In this document: positions 52,710-61,255 of the stretch, one piece after another
Layout: every line of letters begins with the position of its first letter
Position numbering within the stretch: the first letter of the stretch is position 1
Assembly: GCA_017442155.1 (NCBI GenBank)
Contig: JAFSAU010000015.1
Span: forward strand, 1-64,000
Length of the DNA stretch: 64,000 nt
Direction of reading: 5' to 3'
Source of the DNA: Clostridia bacterium
GTDB lineage: Bacteria; Bacillota; Clostridia; UMGS1883; UMGS1540
Notes under the pieces: generated by a model
Told to the model about the DNA's origin: nothing
The model's input: only the letters and a program-made list of their open reading frames with translations
Databases searched by the model: none
Translations under genes and position numbers: made by a program

Positions 52710-54077
52710 ATGGGAGCATTTGAGAAAGACTTATCAAAGGGAAGCGTTGGGAAACAGCTGTGGGCTTTTGCATTGCCCTTTATCATTTCAAATCTGATTC
52801 AGTCACTGTACGGTGTGGTGGACATGATTATTGTGGGGCGGTACAGCGGTGCAGAGAGCATGGCCGGTGTGAATATCGGCAGCCAGATTACGCTGCTGGT
52901 TACAAACCTTGTTATCGGCCTGTGCGCCGGCGGCACCACTTTGATTGCCCAGTATATGGGTAATGGTGCACGAAAGGCACTGAAAGAGACTATCGGAACG
53001 CTGCTTACTACACTGATTGTGCTGGGAATAGCCCTTACTGTCGTGATGGTGCTTTTCAAAAATTCTTTACTGCAGATTGTGCAGACGCCAACGGAGGCAA
53101 TGGGAGAGGCGCAGGAATACCTGCTGATTACGGCCCTCGGCACCCTGTTTATATTTGGATATAATGCACTCAGTGCCATCATGCGCGGGATGGGTGACAG
53201 TAAAAATCCTCTTTTGTTTGTTGGAATTGCCTGCGTGATTAACATTATGCTTGATTATGTTCTGGTGGCGATATCCGGTATGGCGGCCCGTGGTGCGGCT
53301 GTTGCAACGGTGGTGTCCCAGGCGGTGAGCATGATTCTGTGTATTTTTTACCTCAAGCGAAACGATTTTATTTTTGATTTCAGCCGCAGCTCCTTCGGGT
53401 TTCACCGGGAACGGCTTAGGATGCTTTTAAAGGTCGGGATACCCACCTCGGTGCAGAATGTGATTGTGGGTATGTCGTTCCTGTTTCTGACTACGCTGGT
53501 AAATATGATGGGCGTAAAAGAATCTGCAGCCCTGGGTGCCGTAGCAAAGTTCAATTCCTTTGCTATTTTACCGGCACTTGCCATGAGCGCGTCTATTGCA
53601 GCCATGAGTGGCCAGAATCTGGGGGCCGGAAAGCCGGAGAGGGCAGTGCAGACCATGAAGCTGGGAACGCTTATCGGCTTTGCCATGAGTGCTGTTATAT
53701 TTGCTGTGGCCCAGCTTTTTCCGGAGTTTGTGCTTAAAATTTTCAACGATGACCCGGCCGTAATCGCGGCGGGTAAGGAATACATGAGTGCGTTCAACTT
53801 TGACTATCTTCTGGCATCCGTTTTGTTTGGCCTAAACGGACTTTTTATCGGCAGCGGACACACAACCTTCACGCTGTTTAACAGCGTGCTTTCCTCGGTA
53901 CTCATTCGTGTGCCGATGGCGTATCTCGGGGGCATAGTACTGAGTTGGGGGATGTTTGGTGTCGGTCTCGCCGCCCCGGCTTCCTCACTCGTTTCGGTAT
54001 GCATGGCGTTTATTTTCTATAAGACAGGAAAATGGAGAAAGATGGTAATCCTGAAAGGAGATGCAATGAATGGCTAA
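52710..54077 (+). CDS. MATE-family efflux transporter
   Basis: 455 residues, 12 predicted helices. FALPFIISNLIQSLYGVVDM and GRYSGAESMAGVNIGSQITL at the N-terminus and the matching LLKVGIPTSVQNVIVGMSFL with AAMSGQNLGAGKPERAV in the second half show the MATE pseudo-repeat. It would export an organic compound using Na+ or H+. Placed in the operon between the deacetylase and the GHL6 protein, it may release the operon's product or an inhibitor. The end overlaps the next gene by 8 bases. Confidence 0.92.
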   Translation: MGAFEKDLSKGSVGKQLWAFALPFIISNLIQSLYGVVDMIIVGRYSGAESMAGVNIGSQITLLVTNLVIGLCAGGTTLIAQYMGNGARKALKETIGTLLTTLIVLGIALTVVMVLFKNSLLQIVQTPTEAMGEAQEYLLITALGTLFIFGYNALSAIMRGMGDSKNPLLFVGIACVINIMLDYVLVAISGMAARGAAVATVVSQAVSMILCIFYLKRNDFIFDFSRSSFGFHRERLRMLLKVGIPTSVQNVIVGMSFLFLTTLVNMMGVKESAALGAVAKFNSFAILPALAMSASIAAMSGQNLGAGKPERAVQTMKLGTLIGFAMSAVIFAVAQLFPEFVLKIFNDDPAVIAAGKEYMSAFNFDYLLASVLFGLNGLFIGSGHTTFTLFNSVLSSVLIRVPMAYLGGIVLSWGMFGVGLAAPASSLVSVCMAFIFYKTGKWRKMVILKGDAMNG

Positions 54078-56013
54078 GCTGAAACGGGCGGTACATATTG
54101 ATTTTCATACAATGCCGGGGATTTATAACTTCGGTAAGGGATTTGATGCCACAGTTTTTGCGGAGCGGCTGCAAAGTGCCCACGTGGAAATGATCAATAT
54201 GTTTTTTCAGTGTAATATAGGACATGTATATTATCCCACGAAAATCGGCGTGCCGTATCCGGATATGAAGGGGGATATGTTCGGCGATATTGTGCGGGAG
54301 TGCCGAAAACGCGGCATTCGTGTGGTGGGGTACACCAATACGGCTATTAACCATGTGCAGGCACTTCTGCATCCGGAATGGCAACGGGTGGATGCAAAGG
54401 GACGGGTGCTGGGCGATGACCCCGCAAACAACAATTTCTGCCGGCCGATGTGCTTTAATAATGAAGAATACCGGAGGTATCTTTCTTCCCTCATTCGTGA
54501 AGTGGTGGAGCGGTATGACATTGACGGCATCTTTGCTGACTGTATGAATCCGTCACCGTACTGTCACTGCCCCAAGTGCACACGGGATATGAAAGAGGCG
54601 GGGCTGGATATTACCAATAAGGCGCATGTCCGCTATTTTGCCTATGAAAAGTTCCGGGAATTTGCCCTTATGATACGGAACAGCGTTCCGGAGGGAAAGC
54701 TCGTGCAGCAGACAGGCGTACCCTTCGACTGGGATGGAATGCACGCTGTCAGCACCCATGGCGAGCTGGAATGCCTGCCTACAGGCGGCTGGGGATACGA
54801 TTTCTTCGGACCGCAGGTGGCGTATATGCGGCAGTTCCGAAAGGAAATTCTGTATATGACCGGCCGGTTTCAGGCCTCCTGGGGTGATTTTGGCGGATAT
54901 AAGACGGAAGCTGCGATTGAAAATGACTGCTATGATGCGCTTTGTCAGGGCGTGCAGGTTTCTGTGGGAGACCATATGCACCCGGCAGGAAATCTGGATG
55001 AAGCACTGTATGAGAGCATTGGCAGGGCGTTTGCCAAGGTAAAAGCGTACGAACCGTGGACAGACCTGGCGGTACCCCGGGCTGAAATTGCGGTTTTGAA
55101 CGATAAAACCTGCATCACGAAGGAAGAAATGCGGGGCGGTCTGGGACGGAATACGTCGGTAACCGGTGCGGCAAGACTTCTGGCAGAGCTGAAATATGGA
55201 TTTGATATTATTAACGAGGATATGTCCTTTGACGAATATAAGGTGATCATTCTGCCGGACCGGATCTACATGTCTGATAAACTGGCCGACAAGCTGACGG
55301 GGTATACGGAACGGGGCGGAAAACTGCTATGCTCCGGAACGGCGGGGCTGAATAGAACACAGACCGGTTTTGCGATTCCGGCACTGGACTTCCTGCGGTT
55401 TACGGGGCTGGATGACAGCAATTCTTCTTATTACACAGTGGATAAAAGCGCACCACTGGCCATGTACCGCCATGGCATTACCATGGAATCGTCGTATAAA
55501 ACAGCAGACTATATAAAGCCTTACTTTAACCGGCACTGGGATGGCTTGCACGGCTATTTTTACACACCGCCGGAGAAGGCGACGGGCGAAGCGGCCGTGG
55601 CAGAGAAGGACGGCATCTGCTATATTTGCTTCTGTATTTTTGAAAGTTACTTTGATCAGGCTTATGCGGCCCATAAGGAGCTGGTAAGCGGGATATTGAA
55701 GCGGCTTCTGCCGGTACCCCGGCTGAAAACAGAAGACGTACCCAGTACGGCTCGCGTCACTGTGACGGAAGCAGAGGATTTCGATTTACTGCATGTGAAA
55801 ACCACATATCCGGAAAAACGGGGGCGACAGGCCTGCATTATCGAGGAACACACTAAAATGCCTGCAGGGGCCGTGGCGATGGTGCGGGGAACATACGCGG
55901 GTGTATACCGCCTGCCGGAAAAAACGCCCGTTTCCTTTGAAACGGACGGGGTGTATACGCGCGTCACGTTGCCGGAAATCTGCGGATACGATATGTTTCT
56001 GCTGGAAAAATAA
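54070..56013 (+). CDS. GHL6-type putative glycoside hydrolase
   Basis: 647 residues. The TIM-barrel part (~1-350) matches hypothetical glycosyl hydrolase 6: HIDFHTMPGIYNFGKGFDAT, MINMFFQCNIGHVYYPT, DIDGIFADCMNPSPYCHCPK with an Asp-Cys pattern, then HGELECLPTGGW with a candidate Glu. A trimerisation-like Rossmann domain (~355-560, VIILPDRIYMSDKLADKL) and a beta C-terminus follow, as in beta-galactosidase-type enzymes. No signal peptide is present, so it acts in the cytoplasm. It is the last gene of the operon. Confidence 0.8.
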   Translation: MAKLKRAVHIDFHTMPGIYNFGKGFDATVFAERLQSAHVEMINMFFQCNIGHVYYPTKIGVPYPDMKGDMFGDIVRECRKRGIRVVGYTNTAINHVQALLHPEWQRVDAKGRVLGDDPANNNFCRPMCFNNEEYRRYLSSLIREVVERYDIDGIFADCMNPSPYCHCPKCTRDMKEAGLDITNKAHVRYFAYEKFREFALMIRNSVPEGKLVQQTGVPFDWDGMHAVSTHGELECLPTGGWGYDFFGPQVAYMRQFRKEILYMTGRFQASWGDFGGYKTEAAIENDCYDALCQGVQVSVGDHMHPAGNLDEALYESIGRAFAKVKAYEPWTDLAVPRAEIAVLNDKTCITKEEMRGGLGRNTSVTGAARLLAELKYGFDIINEDMSFDEYKVIILPDRIYMSDKLADKLTGYTERGGKLLCSGTAGLNRTQTGFAIPALDFLRFTGLDDSNSSYYTVDKSAPLAMYRHGITMESSYKTADYIKPYFNRHWDGLHGYFYTPPEKATGEAAVAEKDGICYICFCIFESYFDQAYAAHKELVSGILKRLLPVPRLKTEDVPSTARVTVTEAEDFDLLHVKTTYPEKRGRQACIIEEHTKMPAGAVAMVRGTYAGVYRLPEKTPVSFETDGVYTRVTLPEICGYDMFLLEK

Positions 56014-56038: not shown

Positions 56039-56072
56039 AAAAAGGACTTGGCTTTTTTACCAGGTCCTTTTT
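56039..56072. terminator. Bidirectional terminator
   Basis: Stem AAAAAGGAC-TTGG / CCAG-GTCCTTTTT with T runs on both strands. It ends the 49-56 kb operon on the plus strand and the tRNA-Leu on the minus strand. Confidence 0.85.
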
Positions 56073-56158
56073 GGTGCTCGAGACCGGAATCGAACCGGTA
56101 CGGGATTGCTCCCACGGGATTTTAAGTCCCGGGCGTCTGCCAGTTCCGCCACTCGAGC
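56072..56158 (-). tRNA. tRNA-Leu (anticodon TAA), CCA encoded
   Basis: Minus strand: acceptor GCTCGAG/CTCGAGC, anticodon loop CTTAAAA in the GGGA/TCCC stem giving TAA, a long variable arm (class II), and a T arm with TTCGATT. Discriminator A, with CCA encoded at 56072-56074. It is a single-gene unit with a perfect promoter. Confidence 0.94.
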
Positions 56159-56176: not shown

Positions 56177-56205
56177 ATTATAGCATAAAGGTTTTGCTTT
56201 GTCAA
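56177..56205 (-). promoter_or_regulatory. Promoter of tRNA-Leu
   Basis: Minus strand: TTGACA, 17-bp spacer, TATAAT: perfect consensus, 18 bases before the tRNA. Confidence 0.88.
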
Positions 56206-56212
56206 GAATTTT

Positions 56213-56914
56213 TTAATACGCAAGTAAATCTACGTTATACAGAGCAACAGAAATACCCTCGCCCCATTTGATTCTCAGGTTTTCTACGCCCAGAAGGTTT
56301 ACTTCTACGTCAATGGGATTCTGTGCCTGCTGCAGCTCGTAGGAAATGATTTCATGTTCTGTTCCGTCATTTTCCACACTGTAGAAGGTCAGTGTGTTTG
56401 TGGCTTTGGAGCCGACAGAAGTATAAGGCGCAACAGCCTTGCCGACCAGACGGGCATACTTCCCATTTAAAATATAGATGTTGTCGTCGTAGCGACTTCC
56501 CTGCAGCAGGTTATCGCACTGGATTTTCTCATCCTTCAGTTCAAATGTTGCGTCTGCACCTGTTCTGATGCCAACATCATAGGAATCAATCTTGCTTCTT
56601 TCCAGGTCCTCGAGGTGCAATGTGGACTGTACCGGCTTGCCGCCTACATATACGCTTGTGGTAGCCTGATCCCATTCCACTTTCTTGCCAAGCAACTGGC
56701 CCATAGCCCGCAGCGGCACATAGGTGGTACCGTTATAAATCATAGGCTCAACTTTTTCACCGTTCGCATCGCGCAGGGTTTTTTCTACGCCATCCCAGTA
56801 AACACGGATGCCGCCGATATGTACGTCAATACCGACAGCAAATGCGGTCACCGCCGTTGTCAGAACCAGTGCTACGCAAAGTCCTAAAATAAAGCCTTTC
56901 ATCTTCTCTTTCAT
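56213..56914 (-). CDS. Copper-amine-oxidase-like stalk domain protein
   Basis: 233 residues from ATG 56914, with AGGAGG 9 bases upstream. A membrane segment or signal peptide (about 6-27) precedes a beta domain. GEKVEPMIYNGTTYVPLRAMG and QLLGKKVEWDQATTSVYV make the copper amine oxidase N-terminal (stalk) repeat, which is widespread in secreted Clostridia proteins. The C-terminal half is an unrecognised beta-rich region. Probably anchored or released on the outside; function unknown. Confidence 0.82.
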   Translation of the reverse strand: MKEKMKGFILGLCVALVLTTAVTAFAVGIDVHIGGIRVYWDGVEKTLRDANGEKVEPMIYNGTTYVPLRAMGQLLGKKVEWDQATTSVYVGGKPVQSTLHLEDLERSKIDSYDVGIRTGADATFELKDEKIQCDNLLQGSRYDDNIYILNGKYARLVGKAVAPYTSVGSKATNTLTFYSVENDGTEHEIISYELQQAQNPIDVEVNLLGVENLRIKWGEGISVALYNVDLLAY

Positions 56915-56968
56915 GTTCAAAATCCTCCTGAAATTTTTCCGCACGAGGTGCGTCTGGCAGTGCTATTT

Positions 56969-56997
56969 ATTATAGCACTCCGGGATGAAAAAGTCAA
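56969..56997 (-). promoter_or_regulatory. Promoter of the stalk-domain gene
   Basis: Minus strand: TTGACT, 17-bp spacer, TATAAT. Confidence 0.75.
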
Positions 56998-57027: not shown

Positions 57028-58584
57028 TTAATAGGAAGAATAATCTGTAAAATCGAAGGTATCGGTGGGGGCATCGGGATCGGGAAAAACATCTTCCTCG
57101 GCGTGGGCAGAAGCCTGAAAAATCTGCAGACGGCTGTGGCCGGCACAGGACAGAGAGACACTTTGGCCGTCCGGAATATGAAAGGTACCGGAGGATTCTC
57201 CGTCATTTACAAAGACTTCCAGGATGGGACCGTCAGCGAAAAGCTCCAGCATATATAGGGGCGCGGCTGCAATACAGCGGCAAGAGTCCCGTGTTTCCAT
57301 ACAAAGCTTCCCGTCCGTCAGACGTAAAACAAAAGTGCCAAAGCGGAGTGAGAAATTTGTAGGCCCGCAAAGGCGCACCCGTGAAGTGGCGGGAAGCAAA
57401 AATGTGCCGGGAATGTGGCTGTCATATATCACGGTATCAAAAACAGAACACATCTCTGCCGTGGGGCGGGTCAGAAGCCTGCCGGCGCGGGTGAAAAGCT
57501 CCCGCGGCATGGTCATGCAGCGGGCGTGACGGGCCGCGCCGAATAAAAACCGCCGCCCCTTGTGCGAAACAGATGTCGGGGCATGAATGTCTTTGCCGAA
57601 ATCCAGTGTTCCTTGCTGTCGGATGCGAAAACGTGTATTTTGAAAGGTGCCGGTGTACCAGCGTGCCGCATCGGGCCAGGTAGCGAGAAGGGCGTGGGTG
57701 CGTCCGATGGCAAAAAGATTAGGATAATCCAAGGGAAAATCCGCATTCCGCAGAAGCGGGTGCACATACTGCCACTGGCCGCCGGACTGTTGAAAGAGCA
57801 GAAAGACACCGCGGTCCTCCCGCATACTGGCTGTGAGTATATACGTGCCGTCCGCGGTTTCTGTAAAATCCGGATTGCGAAAAACCGGGCCAAACCCTGC
57901 CGGTGGCCGGATGCCGGGTATGATCGTTTCTCCTGAAAAGTGGAGCATATCCCTGCTTTCTGCGCTGAGGATGTATTCCCGCAGAAGTCCGTCGTCCGGC
58001 CGGGATAAGGAGTAGGAAAGATACAGGCGTACCCGGTCCTCCCCGGCTACGGCACAGCCGCCGAGGATGCCGCCGGTAGTATGACGCCCCTGACGGATTT
58101 CAGCAGGCGGTAAAAAGCAGAGGGGCAGATGACGCCAGTGGAGCATGTCGCGGCTGACAGCATGGCCCAGGCAGAAAACATCCGGAGAAACGGAAAAGGG
58201 TGCACACGGATAAAAGAGATGGCATGTGTCCCGGTAAAAGCAGAGCGCGCCGGGCGCGTACATCGGGCCACAAAAGGGCGTGAAATGATATCTTGTGGCG
58301 GACGGAGTTTCTGTTTTCAAAAGAGCACCATCTGCCTGGAGAAAGCGCACACCTCTGTCAAACAGTCTGTCGCAGTCGGAAAGATACGCGAGGGAAAGCG
58401 TGGCATCGGTGAGGGAGAGGGTATACACCGTATATTTTTGTAGTGGAAAGACAACCCGGTCCAGATTCCGGGCACGCCTTCGCAAAAAATTGATGCCGTC
58501 AGACAAAGTGAGGAGAGCGGATGAGCCGGATACCCGCGGAAAAATCTCCAGCGTACGGTAACAATCGCTATAAAATGTAATCAT
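57028..58584 (-). CDS. GH32-fold protein with all catalytic motifs altered
   Basis: 518 residues. After ~98 N-terminal residues it has the GH32 five-blade propeller and C-terminal sandwich. YHFTPFCGPMYAPGALCFY aligns with the WMNDPNG region but has Ala110 for the nucleophile Asp. The RDP motif is FRNPD (Asn237), and the ECP acid/base region is DYPN (Asp286). HLFYPCAPF and LEVFVNDGESSG confirm the fold. It probably cannot cleave fructosides and may bind a ligand or scaffold. Its ATG overlaps the ylbJ stop (ATGA), so it is coupled to that gene. A RBS AAAGGAG is present. Confidence 0.8.
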   Translation of the reverse strand: MITFYSDCYRTLEIFPRVSGSSALLTLSDGINFLRRRARNLDRVVFPLQKYTVYTLSLTDATLSLAYLSDCDRLFDRGVRFLQADGALLKTETPSATRYHFTPFCGPMYAPGALCFYRDTCHLFYPCAPFSVSPDVFCLGHAVSRDMLHWRHLPLCFLPPAEIRQGRHTTGGILGGCAVAGEDRVRLYLSYSLSRPDDGLLREYILSAESRDMLHFSGETIIPGIRPPAGFGPVFRNPDFTETADGTYILTASMREDRGVFLLFQQSGGQWQYVHPLLRNADFPLDYPNLFAIGRTHALLATWPDAARWYTGTFQNTRFRIRQQGTLDFGKDIHAPTSVSHKGRRFLFGAARHARCMTMPRELFTRAGRLLTRPTAEMCSVFDTVIYDSHIPGTFLLPATSRVRLCGPTNFSLRFGTFVLRLTDGKLCMETRDSCRCIAAAPLYMLELFADGPILEVFVNDGESSGTFHIPDGQSVSLSCAGHSRLQIFQASAHAEEDVFPDPDAPTDTFDFTDYSSY

Positions 58585-59687
58585 GCCTGCTCCTTTTCTG
58601 TTTTTTTCTTTATTGTATCATAGCCGGAAGTGCGATGCAACCTTTTATTCAAAGAATCCATCAGCCGGAAGAAAAACCAGACAGAGAAGGTGAGAAGCAC
58701 GGCCGCGGCCAGATAACCGCCGTAAGCGACAGCCTTTTCCTGCAAAAGAGGAGCGTTGGCGGGGACAGCCTGCGGAAACACCATCAGCAGGAGACGACAG
58801 TAGAAGGCAGACAGCCCGGAGGATAAAAGCTTTCCTATTATATAACTATTCATGGAAAGACCGTTTCTTCGCACAAGGGCCGCTGTCTGGAGAAAAACGG
58901 ACAGGCCGCCAAAGGACAAAAGCCCGGCCATGGCGGGGAGGGCACCGCCGTCTGTGCCGGCTACCGCGCTGACTTCGAGAAAGCCTGCGCACAGAAGTGC
59001 CGCCGTCTTTTCGCCAAGTCCGGAAGCTGTCAGAAAACGGCGGGCAATGCCAAGAATGCCCAGATGCTCCAGAAATGCGGTGATAACGGAGAAAAAGACT
59101 ACAAAACCGCAGAGTGAGAGAACGGTGTGCACTGCATCACCCATCGGGTCGGCGGCAGTCTTTCGGAGCGTGGTACGCACGCGTGGGGTGTCAGTGCCGT
59201 AAAAGCGCATACAAAAGCCGGTGGAAAATGAAGCAAGGGTCTGGGCGGCCAGGAGAATGTACCCTGCGGCAGGGCTTTTGCATGCGGCCGTACCTACAGC
59301 ACCAATGACGAACAGGGGACCGGCGTTATTTGTGAAGGCCAGAAGCCGCTGGGCTTCCGGGCGAGAAATACTGCCGGAGGAATATAGCTTACAGGTGACG
59401 GCGGCACCGGCAGGGTAGCCGCTGACAAGCCCTAAAAGTACAGCGGATGCACCTTCACCACCTACGCGAAAAAGGAAGCGGGAGGGTCTTTCAAAAATTC
59501 GGCCGGCAGACGATGTGATTCCGCTGGCTATCAGGGTGTTGGCACAGACAAAAAAGGGGAAAAGCGAAGGAATGAGCGTAGAAGCGCAAAGAGAGAGTGC
59601 TTTTCCGGCCGCGCTTATAGCAACGGCGGGGAACAGAGAAAGGGCCAGTGCAGTAAGTGCCGCACAGATACCGACAGCTTTTTTCAT
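58581..59687 (-). CDS. ylbJ: YlbJ-like sporulation membrane protein
   Basis: 368 residues, about 9-10 helices. STLIPSLFPFFVCANTLIASG and GLVSGYPAGAAVTCKLYSSG near 90 are the nucleoside-recognition (GATE) motif of YlbJ. YlbJ is needed for spore cortex formation in Bacillus and localises to the spore. The usual length is about 400, so the C-terminus is slightly short. AGGAGG and ATG are in the right place. It is divergent from yqfC and cotranscribed with the GH32-like gene. Confidence 0.87.
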   Translation of the reverse strand: MKKAVGICAALTALALSLFPAVAISAAGKALSLCASTLIPSLFPFFVCANTLIASGITSSAGRIFERPSRFLFRVGGEGASAVLLGLVSGYPAGAAVTCKLYSSGSISRPEAQRLLAFTNNAGPLFVIGAVGTAACKSPAAGYILLAAQTLASFSTGFCMRFYGTDTPRVRTTLRKTAADPMGDAVHTVLSLCGFVVFFSVITAFLEHLGILGIARRFLTASGLGEKTAALLCAGFLEVSAVAGTDGGALPAMAGLLSFGGLSVFLQTAALVRRNGLSMNSYIIGKLLSSGLSAFYCRLLLMVFPQAVPANAPLLQEKAVAYGGYLAAAVLLTFSVWFFFRLMDSLNKRLHRTSGYDTIKKKTEKEQA

Positions 59688-59759: not shown

Positions 59760-60038
59760 ATGCGAAAACGAAACCGGACGCCCCTCCGAGAAAAGGTGGC
59801 AGAAGCTGTGGAACTGCCGAAGGAGATTATGCTTTCTATGCCGAAAATAACGGTGCTGGCAGGCAAGGAAGCCACTGTGGAGAATTATAAAGGCATTATA
59901 GAGCTTTCCAGAGAGTGTATTCGCCTGTACACCGGGGCGGGGATTTTATGTTTGCGGGGAGAAAACCTGGATATTGCGGCGATTACGGACGAGGATATTG
60001 CCATTGAGGGTGCAATTGGTAAAATTGAATTTGAATAG
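59760..60038 (+). CDS. yqfC: Sporulation protein YqfC
   Basis: 92 residues from ATG 59760, with AAAGG 9 bases upstream; the frame opens 18 codons earlier without a good site. REKVAEAVELPKEIMLSMPKIT, then GRECVENYKGIIEL-like VENYKGIIELSRECIRLYTG, match the YqfC family (93 residues in Bacillus). It pairs with YqfD in the mother cell in spore formation. Followed by yqfD after 11 bases. Confidence 0.9.
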   Translation: MRKRNRTPLREKVAEAVELPKEIMLSMPKITVLAGKEATVENYKGIIELSRECIRLYTGAGILCLRGENLDIAAITDEDIAIEGAIGKIEFE

Positions 60039-60049
60039 AGGGCGTAGTC

Positions 60050-61255
60050 ATGATTTTTTCTATTTTACAGTATTTGCGGGGCTTTCTTGTTCTGCAGCTT
60101 CAGGGAATGTACATTGAACGATTTATTAACCTATGCGTGAGGCACGGCATATATTTATGGAACATCCGGAAGGAAGCGTGCGGCCGGGCAACAGTACATG
60201 TGAGCATCCCGGGGTTTTTTCGTATTCCGGAAGCGGCACGGAAAACCAAAACAAAAGTAAAAATTTTGCGGAAAAGAGGTCTGCCGCTTTTCTTGCATCG
60301 CCACAGGAGACGAGGTGCCTTTGTGGCCGGAATGCTCCTTTTTACCATAGTACTGGCACTTCTGACCTCCTTTGTATGGGCGATAGAGATTGACGGAACA
60401 GAAAAAATGGATAAAAATATGATAAGAAATACGCTTAGGTCTTGCGGTTTGGACGTGGGTGTGTTAAAATATACCTTGAAGGCTTCCGATATTCAGGCGG
60501 ATATGCTGCGGGAGATGCCGGAGCTGTCCTGGCTGTGGGTGGAGGTTAAGGGGACGCGGGCTTTTGTGCATGTGCGCGAAAAAACGCCGGTGCCCGATAT
60601 TGTTCCTGTAGGCCGCCCGGCTAATATTACAGCGGACTGTGACGGGGTGATTACCGAATGCACAGCCACGCGGGGCACTGCTATGGTCCGGGAGGGCGAT
60701 ACGGTGCAAAAAGGGACGCTCCTGATAAGCGGTACAGTGGAAACAAAGCATGGAAGCACACTGCTGGTGCATGCGGAAGGGTCTGTAAAGGCGAAAACGT
60801 GGCGCACGAGAAGCGGCACCTTTCCCCTTGAGAAGCAGACGGAGACGGACAGAGGCCAGGTGAAAACCCGATACAATCTTTATTTCGGCACATGGCGGCT
60901 TCCACTGCATACCGGCCGAGACCCTTTTGAAACATATCGGGTGGAAACAGAGACAACTGCTGTGAAGCTCTGGGGAGACCTGTATTTGCCGGTCACTTTT
61001 GAAAAACAAAGGCTTTACAGTACAGATGTGGGCAGTGTTACGCTTTCACCGGCAGAGGCGGAAATGTATTATGGCAAGACACTTCTCGCCGAAATCGAAA
61101 TTCCGGATAACGGGGAAATTATAAATACAGAATATACGCACATACTAAATAAAGACGGAACAATTACAGTGACTTGTACCGTCGAATGTATAGAGGAAAT
61201 CGGGGAAACCCGGGAGATACTGGAGGAAACAGAGGATGACGGAACGATATTTTGA
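60050..61255 (+). CDS. yqfD: Sporulation protein YqfD
   Basis: 401 residues, as in Bacillus (398). A cytoplasmic N-terminal domain with GMYIERFINLCVRHGIYLWN, one membrane helix (about 93-112, AGMLLFTIVLALLTSFVWAI), then an extracytoplasmic part with LSWLWVEVKGTRAFVHVREKTP. YqfD is a mother-cell membrane protein for stage IV. Its gene overlaps phoH by 20 bases. Confidence 0.9.
   Translation: MIFSILQYLRGFLVLQLQGMYIERFINLCVRHGIYLWNIRKEACGRATVHVSIPGFFRIPEAARKTKTKVKILRKRGLPLFLHRHRRRGAFVAGMLLFTIVLALLTSFVWAIEIDGTEKMDKNMIRNTLRSCGLDVGVLKYTLKASDIQADMLREMPELSWLWVEVKGTRAFVHVREKTPVPDIVPVGRPANITADCDGVITECTATRGTAMVREGDTVQKGTLLISGTVETKHGSTLLVHAEGSVKAKTWRTRSGTFPLEKQTETDRGQVKTRYNLYFGTWRLPLHTGRDPFETYRVETETTAVKLWGDLYLPVTFEKQRLYSTDVGSVTLSPAEAEMYYGKTLLAEIEIPDNGEIINTEYTHILNKDGTITVTCTVECIEEIGETREILEETEDDGTIF

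Follow-up and report, generated by a model that had tools for sequence, protein, structure and literature searches.

The window analysed here is a 64,000-nucleotide stretch of the genome of a Clostridia bacterium. Its reverse strand contains an open reading frame bounded exactly by positions 57028 and 58584, which starts with ATG and encodes a GH32-like protein of 518 residues, related by descent to enzymes that cleave sucrose and fructans and predicted to be a pseudoenzyme. The gene lies directly behind ylbJ (spoVV), and the sporulation genes yqfC and yqfD adjoin ylbJ on the opposite strand. The features of the locus are as follows:

57028-58584, minus strand: GH32-like predicted pseudoenzyme, 518 aa (ORF call, Pfam, structure alignment, tree)
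58294-58584, minus strand: N-terminal domain, residues 1-97 (6nob alignment; best conserved part)
57445-58293, minus strand: five-bladed propeller region, residues 98-380 (Pfam Glyco_hydro_32N match at 100-352)
57100-57444, minus strand: C-terminal sandwich region, residues 381-495 (least conserved part; under the Pfam 32C cut-off)
57031-57099, minus strand: acidic and aromatic C-terminal tail DPDAPTDTFDFTDY, common to the window and SIG447 and lacking in RGIG3022
58255-58257, minus strand: codon 110 (GCG), Ala for the GH32 nucleophile Asp
57874-57876, minus strand: codon 237 (AAT), Asn for the transition-state stabiliser Asp of the RDP motif
57727-57729, minus strand: codon 286 (GAT), Asp for the acid/base Glu of the ECP motif
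58581-58584, minus strand: ATGA, the pseudoenzyme start overlapping the ylbJ stop (TGA)
58590-58597, minus strand: AAAAGGAG, Shine-Dalgarno-like, within the ylbJ 3' end
58581-59687, minus strand: ylbJ / spoVV (TIGR02871, E=1e-59, under the curated cut-off)
59760-60038, plus strand: yqfC, divergent sporulation gene (TIGR02856, 4.9e-22)
60050-61255, plus strand: yqfD, sporulation gene (TIGR02876, 2.8e-86)

Two homologues from the same genus, one of uncultured bacteria of the gut, are compared throughout, one from Oscillospiraceae bacterium SIG447 (52% identical) and one from Clostridia bacterium RGIG3022 of goat rectum (31%). Pfam Glyco_hydro_32N (PF00251) matches the window protein with E=5.6e-17 and 62.7 bits against a cut-off of 22.1, and the match is present in all three proteins. 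The initial annotation had described preserved fold marks and an intact sandwich; the latter claim is too strong since the sandwich is only 34% identical between the window and SIG447, the least conserved region of the protein. The Pfam 32C model (PF08244) gives it 12.8 bits, below the cut-off of 21.9, and the profile alignment of the window protein to 6nob and 1w2t covers it in part. The other regions are 66% (N-terminal domain), 57% (tail), and 52% (propeller) identical in the same pair. The tail motif DxDAPxDTFDFxDY is kept between the window and SIG447 despite the divergent sandwich that precedes it, and could be a contact peptide. A signal peptide or membrane segment is not evident in the protein sequence as judged by eye.

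Residue alignment to Thermotoga maritima BfrA (1uyp/1w2t) was used to place the catalytic sites. The BfrA motifs WMNDPN, FRDP, and ECP read PMYAPG, FRNP, and DYP in the window protein, with D17, D138, and E190 of BfrA corresponding to A110, N237, and D286. The replacement of Asp, Asp, and Glu at these sites, first noticed by the initial annotation, is thus confirmed by the alignment and by the codons GCG, AAT, and GAT. In the order nucleophile, stabiliser, and acid/base, the triad letters are A/N/D in the window, A/S/A in SIG447, and G/D/D in RGIG3022, so that all three positions are lost in the first two proteins and two of three in the last. Homologues carrying the same substitutions had been anticipated beside ylbJ; the neighbourhood holds, whereas the letters differ from protein to protein (A/A/G, N/S/D, and D/A/D by site). 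Different letters at the same sites in two further, independent MAGs make chance or an assembly error an unlikely source of the loss. None of the homologues keeps all three catalytic residues, while every full-length protein among about 65 other GH32s compared, from the same class and phylum, keeps Asp/Asp/Glu. Apparent triad losses in three other GH32s, L098_2582, L088_3615, and L033_2, were rejected as locus-edge truncations or alignment artefacts.

The loss apparently extends to most of the sugar pocket. Sixty-one intact GH32s served as the reference for invariance and gave 35 columns that are at least 95% invariant, of which nine are catalytic or pocket columns, as we take them to be from the BfrA alignment and general knowledge of GH32 structures, and 26 are others. 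All three proteins keep one of the nine pocket columns (Arg236) against 17 of the 26 others (Fisher p=0.007, a guide only, as the three proteins are related and the pocket set was picked with the alignment known). Each protein by itself retains 19 to 23 of the 26 non-pocket residues. In the order window/SIG447/RGIG3022, the changes in and around the pocket are N109 to Y/Y/L, Q126 to P/S/L, W139 to L/L/L, W350 to A/V/T, and C287 to Y/M/F. In related enzymes, the walls or floor of the pocket are formed by Trp38, Trp65, and Trp335 of exo-inulinase and by Asp41, Thr104, and Cys222 of BT1760 (PMC6560043). The acidic side chains of the old pocket are mostly gone, and none of the three proteins has intact -1 subsite residues. 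Taken together, the sequences predict with high confidence that the window protein is a GH32 pseudoenzyme. Residues 139 (L), 167-168 (RH), 232-233 (GP), and 295-296 (RT), identical in all three dead proteins, are seldom seen in intact GH32s, and they are candidates for a new function.

The gene is present in all three genomes of the genus, among six genomes of the family examined, and is missing from the 25 other genomes of the order, those of the remaining family genera included. A scan of genome contigs with the single protein gave no match, and an alignment-based scan found the SIG447 and RGIG3022 homologues only; viral contigs, as an alignment source, contributed one or two GH32s. In all three genomes the gene lies directly behind ylbJ on the same strand, with a 4-base overlap in the window, a 20-base overlap in SIG447, and a 27-base gap in RGIG3022. 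The ATGA junction reported earlier is real, with AAAAGGAG inside the end of ylbJ, and within the genus the linkage is not lost in any relative. It may nevertheless be plain shared descent, because only three sequences, all of one genus, are known. In sister genera the slot behind ylbJ varies and is occupied by NAD synthase in one (G001) and by the spore amidase gene cwlD in another (G005). In the latter, the cortex amidase gene lies 7 bases behind ylbJ (L069, 2828-4580). The former, of the same family (L067, 98% complete), has ylbJ, yqfC, yqfD, and SpoVAC, and a SpoIVA match is absent.

The setting is one of sporulation. The SpoIVA and SpoVAC/SpoVAEB families are found in all three genomes of the genus, and yqfC and yqfD adjoin ylbJ in the host and also in both relatives. 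The YlbJ matches of all 26 matching order genomes score under the curated TIGR02871 cut-off, and the order therefore seems to carry a divergent SpoVV. In Bacillus subtilis, ylbJ has been renamed spoVV; it is expressed in the mother cell under sigma-E control, and its product resides in the outer forespore membrane, where it transports dipicolinic acid (DPA) (PMC5629000). The sporulation link proposed earlier thus stands as linkage in three of three genomes, whereas its direct tie to cortex or coat does not, since the identity of ylbJ with spoVV points to DPA transport and outer-membrane biology.

SpoVV, a membrane transporter that is not homologous to the pseudoenzyme, is encoded by the first gene of the unit. 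A sigma-70-type promoter was not found upstream of ylbJ. A sigma-E promoter was sought by eye in the 72-base gap ahead of ylbJ, which contains a motif, TCATATACATATGGCGAAAGGA, common to the three genomes; this motif extends into the ribosome-binding site of yqfC and was rejected as a poor consensus match. The next gene downstream of the pseudoenzyme has its own sigma-70-type promoter (56969-56997), and the unit therefore probably consists of ylbJ and the pseudoenzyme gene only. The product of that downstream gene (56213-56944, minus strand) looks exported and contains a copper amine oxidase N-terminal-like domain; the gene is present in SIG447 and missing at the same place in RGIG3022. Further on, a perfect TTGACA-17-TATAAT promoter with an extended TG (56177-56205, minus strand) precedes tRNA-Leu(taa) at 56072-56158 on the same strand, and this tRNA gene is also placed behind the pseudoenzyme in RGIG3022. 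A GHL6-type putative glycoside hydrolase with a GH42M-like domain is encoded at 54070-56013 on the plus strand and is 68% identical in RGIG3022, where the order is rearranged.

The closest relative of solved structure is 6nob, a beta-fructofuranosidase of Bifidobacterium adolescentis, a species not known to form spores. Like the window protein with its putative sandwich, 6nob has an N-terminal domain, a propeller, and a sandwich in the same order, and the two align from 6nob residue 11-12 on, N-terminal domain included. Unlike the window protein, it retains WMNDPN, FRDP, and ECP. The propeller of BfrA aligns with residues 98-399 of the window protein, and the crystal protein 1w2t has Asp at the acid/base position where 1uyp has Glu, the same change as in the window. 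In contrast to the window protein, BfrA is an active enzyme without the extra N-terminal domain. In a maximum-likelihood tree of the propeller, the three proteins form one clade (99/98) that is joined by 6nob (100/99). The host also has an intact GH32 on another contig (C50), with WVNDPN, FRDP, and ECP, which falls in a distant clade. In a comparison of 391 genomes of the class, the window protein was the sole GH32 that could be aligned with the N-terminal domain of 6nob. Together with the tree, this argues against a recent duplication of the resident GH32 as the source of the pseudoenzyme, and its gene was likely acquired by transfer from outside. The ancestor of the genus would have acquired a GH32 with a 6nob-type N-terminal domain at the position behind ylbJ (spoVV); this protein would then have lost its catalytic and fructose-holding residues and would since have been kept as a folded non-enzymatic protein.

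The pattern of losses and linkage suggests a new non-enzymatic job in spore formation, and that the pseudoenzyme serves sporulation is, in our judgement, somewhat probable. Its translation would take place on the ylbJ transcript in the mother cell, coupled to that of SpoVV. The protein has no evident export signal and should therefore remain in the cytosol of the cell in which it is made. As the fructose subsite has been lost, fructosides would hardly be bound in the normal way, and these two observations together favour a role in protein contact. Given a sporulation role, protein contact and a re-tuned ligand pocket divide our expectation about equally. The reading that we put forward, with confidence that is evenly balanced, is that the protein lacks catalytic activity, stays in the cytosol of the mother cell, where it is made together with SpoVV, and most likely acts at the outer forespore membrane through contacts with another protein. 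The partner would most likely be SpoVV or another component at the mother-cell face of that membrane; its identity and the benefit gained are a guess. AlphaFold models from 4- and 3-row alignments reached mean pLDDT values of 56 and 49, too low for a usable pocket or for a surface on which a partner site could be placed. Foldseek ranked GH32 structures first for the first of these models (6nob, E=7e-21) with a TM of about 0.3, an agreement that is therefore local only.

The glycan-binding role favoured by the initial annotation is not upheld, since the triad and the -1 fructose subsite are dismantled in all three proteins. We also consider unlikely its more general form, in which a non-cleaving pocket makes the protein a mother-cell lectin for glycans of the coat or spore surface, with a sugar specificity that may be new. 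Engineered triad mutants of GH32s are present in the PDB with bound sugars, for example those of a plant invertase (2qqw D23A, 2qqu D239A, and 2qqv E203A) and 4ffh (D54N) with sucrose, and loss of the triad alone therefore need not abolish binding. Moreover, Arg236 and the lineage-specific R167, H168, G232, and P233, which are near the old pocket in sequence, are invariant. However, N109, Q126, W139, W350, and C287 around the pocket are also replaced, and a fructan lectin is disfavoured by so gutted a pocket. The beta-sandwich of the GH32 enzyme BT1760 is not a sugar-binding module (PMC6560043), and in the pseudoenzyme it is the fastest-changing part. In addition, a protein without an export signal could reach only those glycans that face the mother cell.

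It is more doubtful still that the protein is a relic, namely an inactivated GH32 that persists through translation with ylbJ and drifts slowly under weak constraint. Its divergence is fast compared with its neighbours (52% identity between the window and SIG447, against 67% for ylbJ, 75% for yqfD, and 96% for phoH), which also fits weak constraint; the sandwich is 34% and 19% identical to those of the two relatives, and RGIG3022 is without the tail. On the other hand, no stop or frameshift occurs in the gene across three lineages, whereas about 12 stops would be expected under neutral drift to the observed protein distance, with no fewer than 4 in any of 500 simulated runs that placed a similar number of changes at random. 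The dN/dS between the window and SIG447 is 0.20 (0.19 for ylbJ), with dS saturated at 2.1, and most of the non-pocket invariant residues are kept in each protein. These values indicate that the gene is under purifying selection, in agreement with the initial view that the change was selected and does not reflect decay.

Very unlikely, in our estimate, is a lineage-specific SpoVV accessory that tunes spore loading by binding, on the side of the mother cell, either DPA or the transporter. Slightly less likely than this is that the protein binds a small anionic ligand, possibly dipicolinate, and serves SpoVV as an accessory or a sensor. The gene shares its operon with that of a DPA transporter, and the old pocket has lost most of its acidic side chains while Arg236 is kept and Arg167 and His168 are invariant. 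Against such a ligand, SpoVV and DPA synthase are enough for DPA export in vegetative B. subtilis cells (PMC5629000), and in the family's other genera ylbJ occurs without the pseudoenzyme. Another explanation is that the protein acts on an active invertase as a decoy or regulator, the role proposed for Nin88 of plants (PMC11821009), and the host does carry an intact GH32. This explanation is largely refuted and highly improbable, as a second GH32 was not found in SIG447 (77% complete) or RGIG3022 (94% complete), and the intact enzyme of the host falls far away in the tree. It is just as improbable that the protein is still active, either through catalytic residues at new sites or on a new substrate: residue 286 is acidic in two of the three proteins and new invariant residues include E209 and E447, but SIG447 has Ala at 286 and the nucleophile site reads Ala/Ala/Gly.

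Proteins of this general kind are known elsewhere. Plant defective invertases, including tobacco Nin88, are GH32s retained after the loss of catalytic or NDPN residues (PMC11821009). The Nin88-type proteins are plant cell-wall proteins that occur beside many active paralogues; in contrast, the window protein is probably cytosolic and belongs to spore-formers, and two of the three genomes show no active paralogue. GH18 chitinase-like lectins keep a glycosidase fold without catalysis (PMC3662789), and some are reported to bind sugars. Unlike those sugar-binding members, the window protein has a dismantled fructose subsite. No description of a dead GH32 relative from bacteria was found in the open literature searched, which included few subscription journals. 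Dead GH32s are already known from plants, and what is new is the lineage-restricted GH32 pseudoenzyme. Across three species, the reaction centre and the sugar pocket have been lost while the rest of the protein has been retained, and the case is connected with a single, defined spore gene. Should the association with SpoVV prove functional, the pseudoenzyme would be a genus-specific and previously unknown part of spore loading in gut Clostridia.
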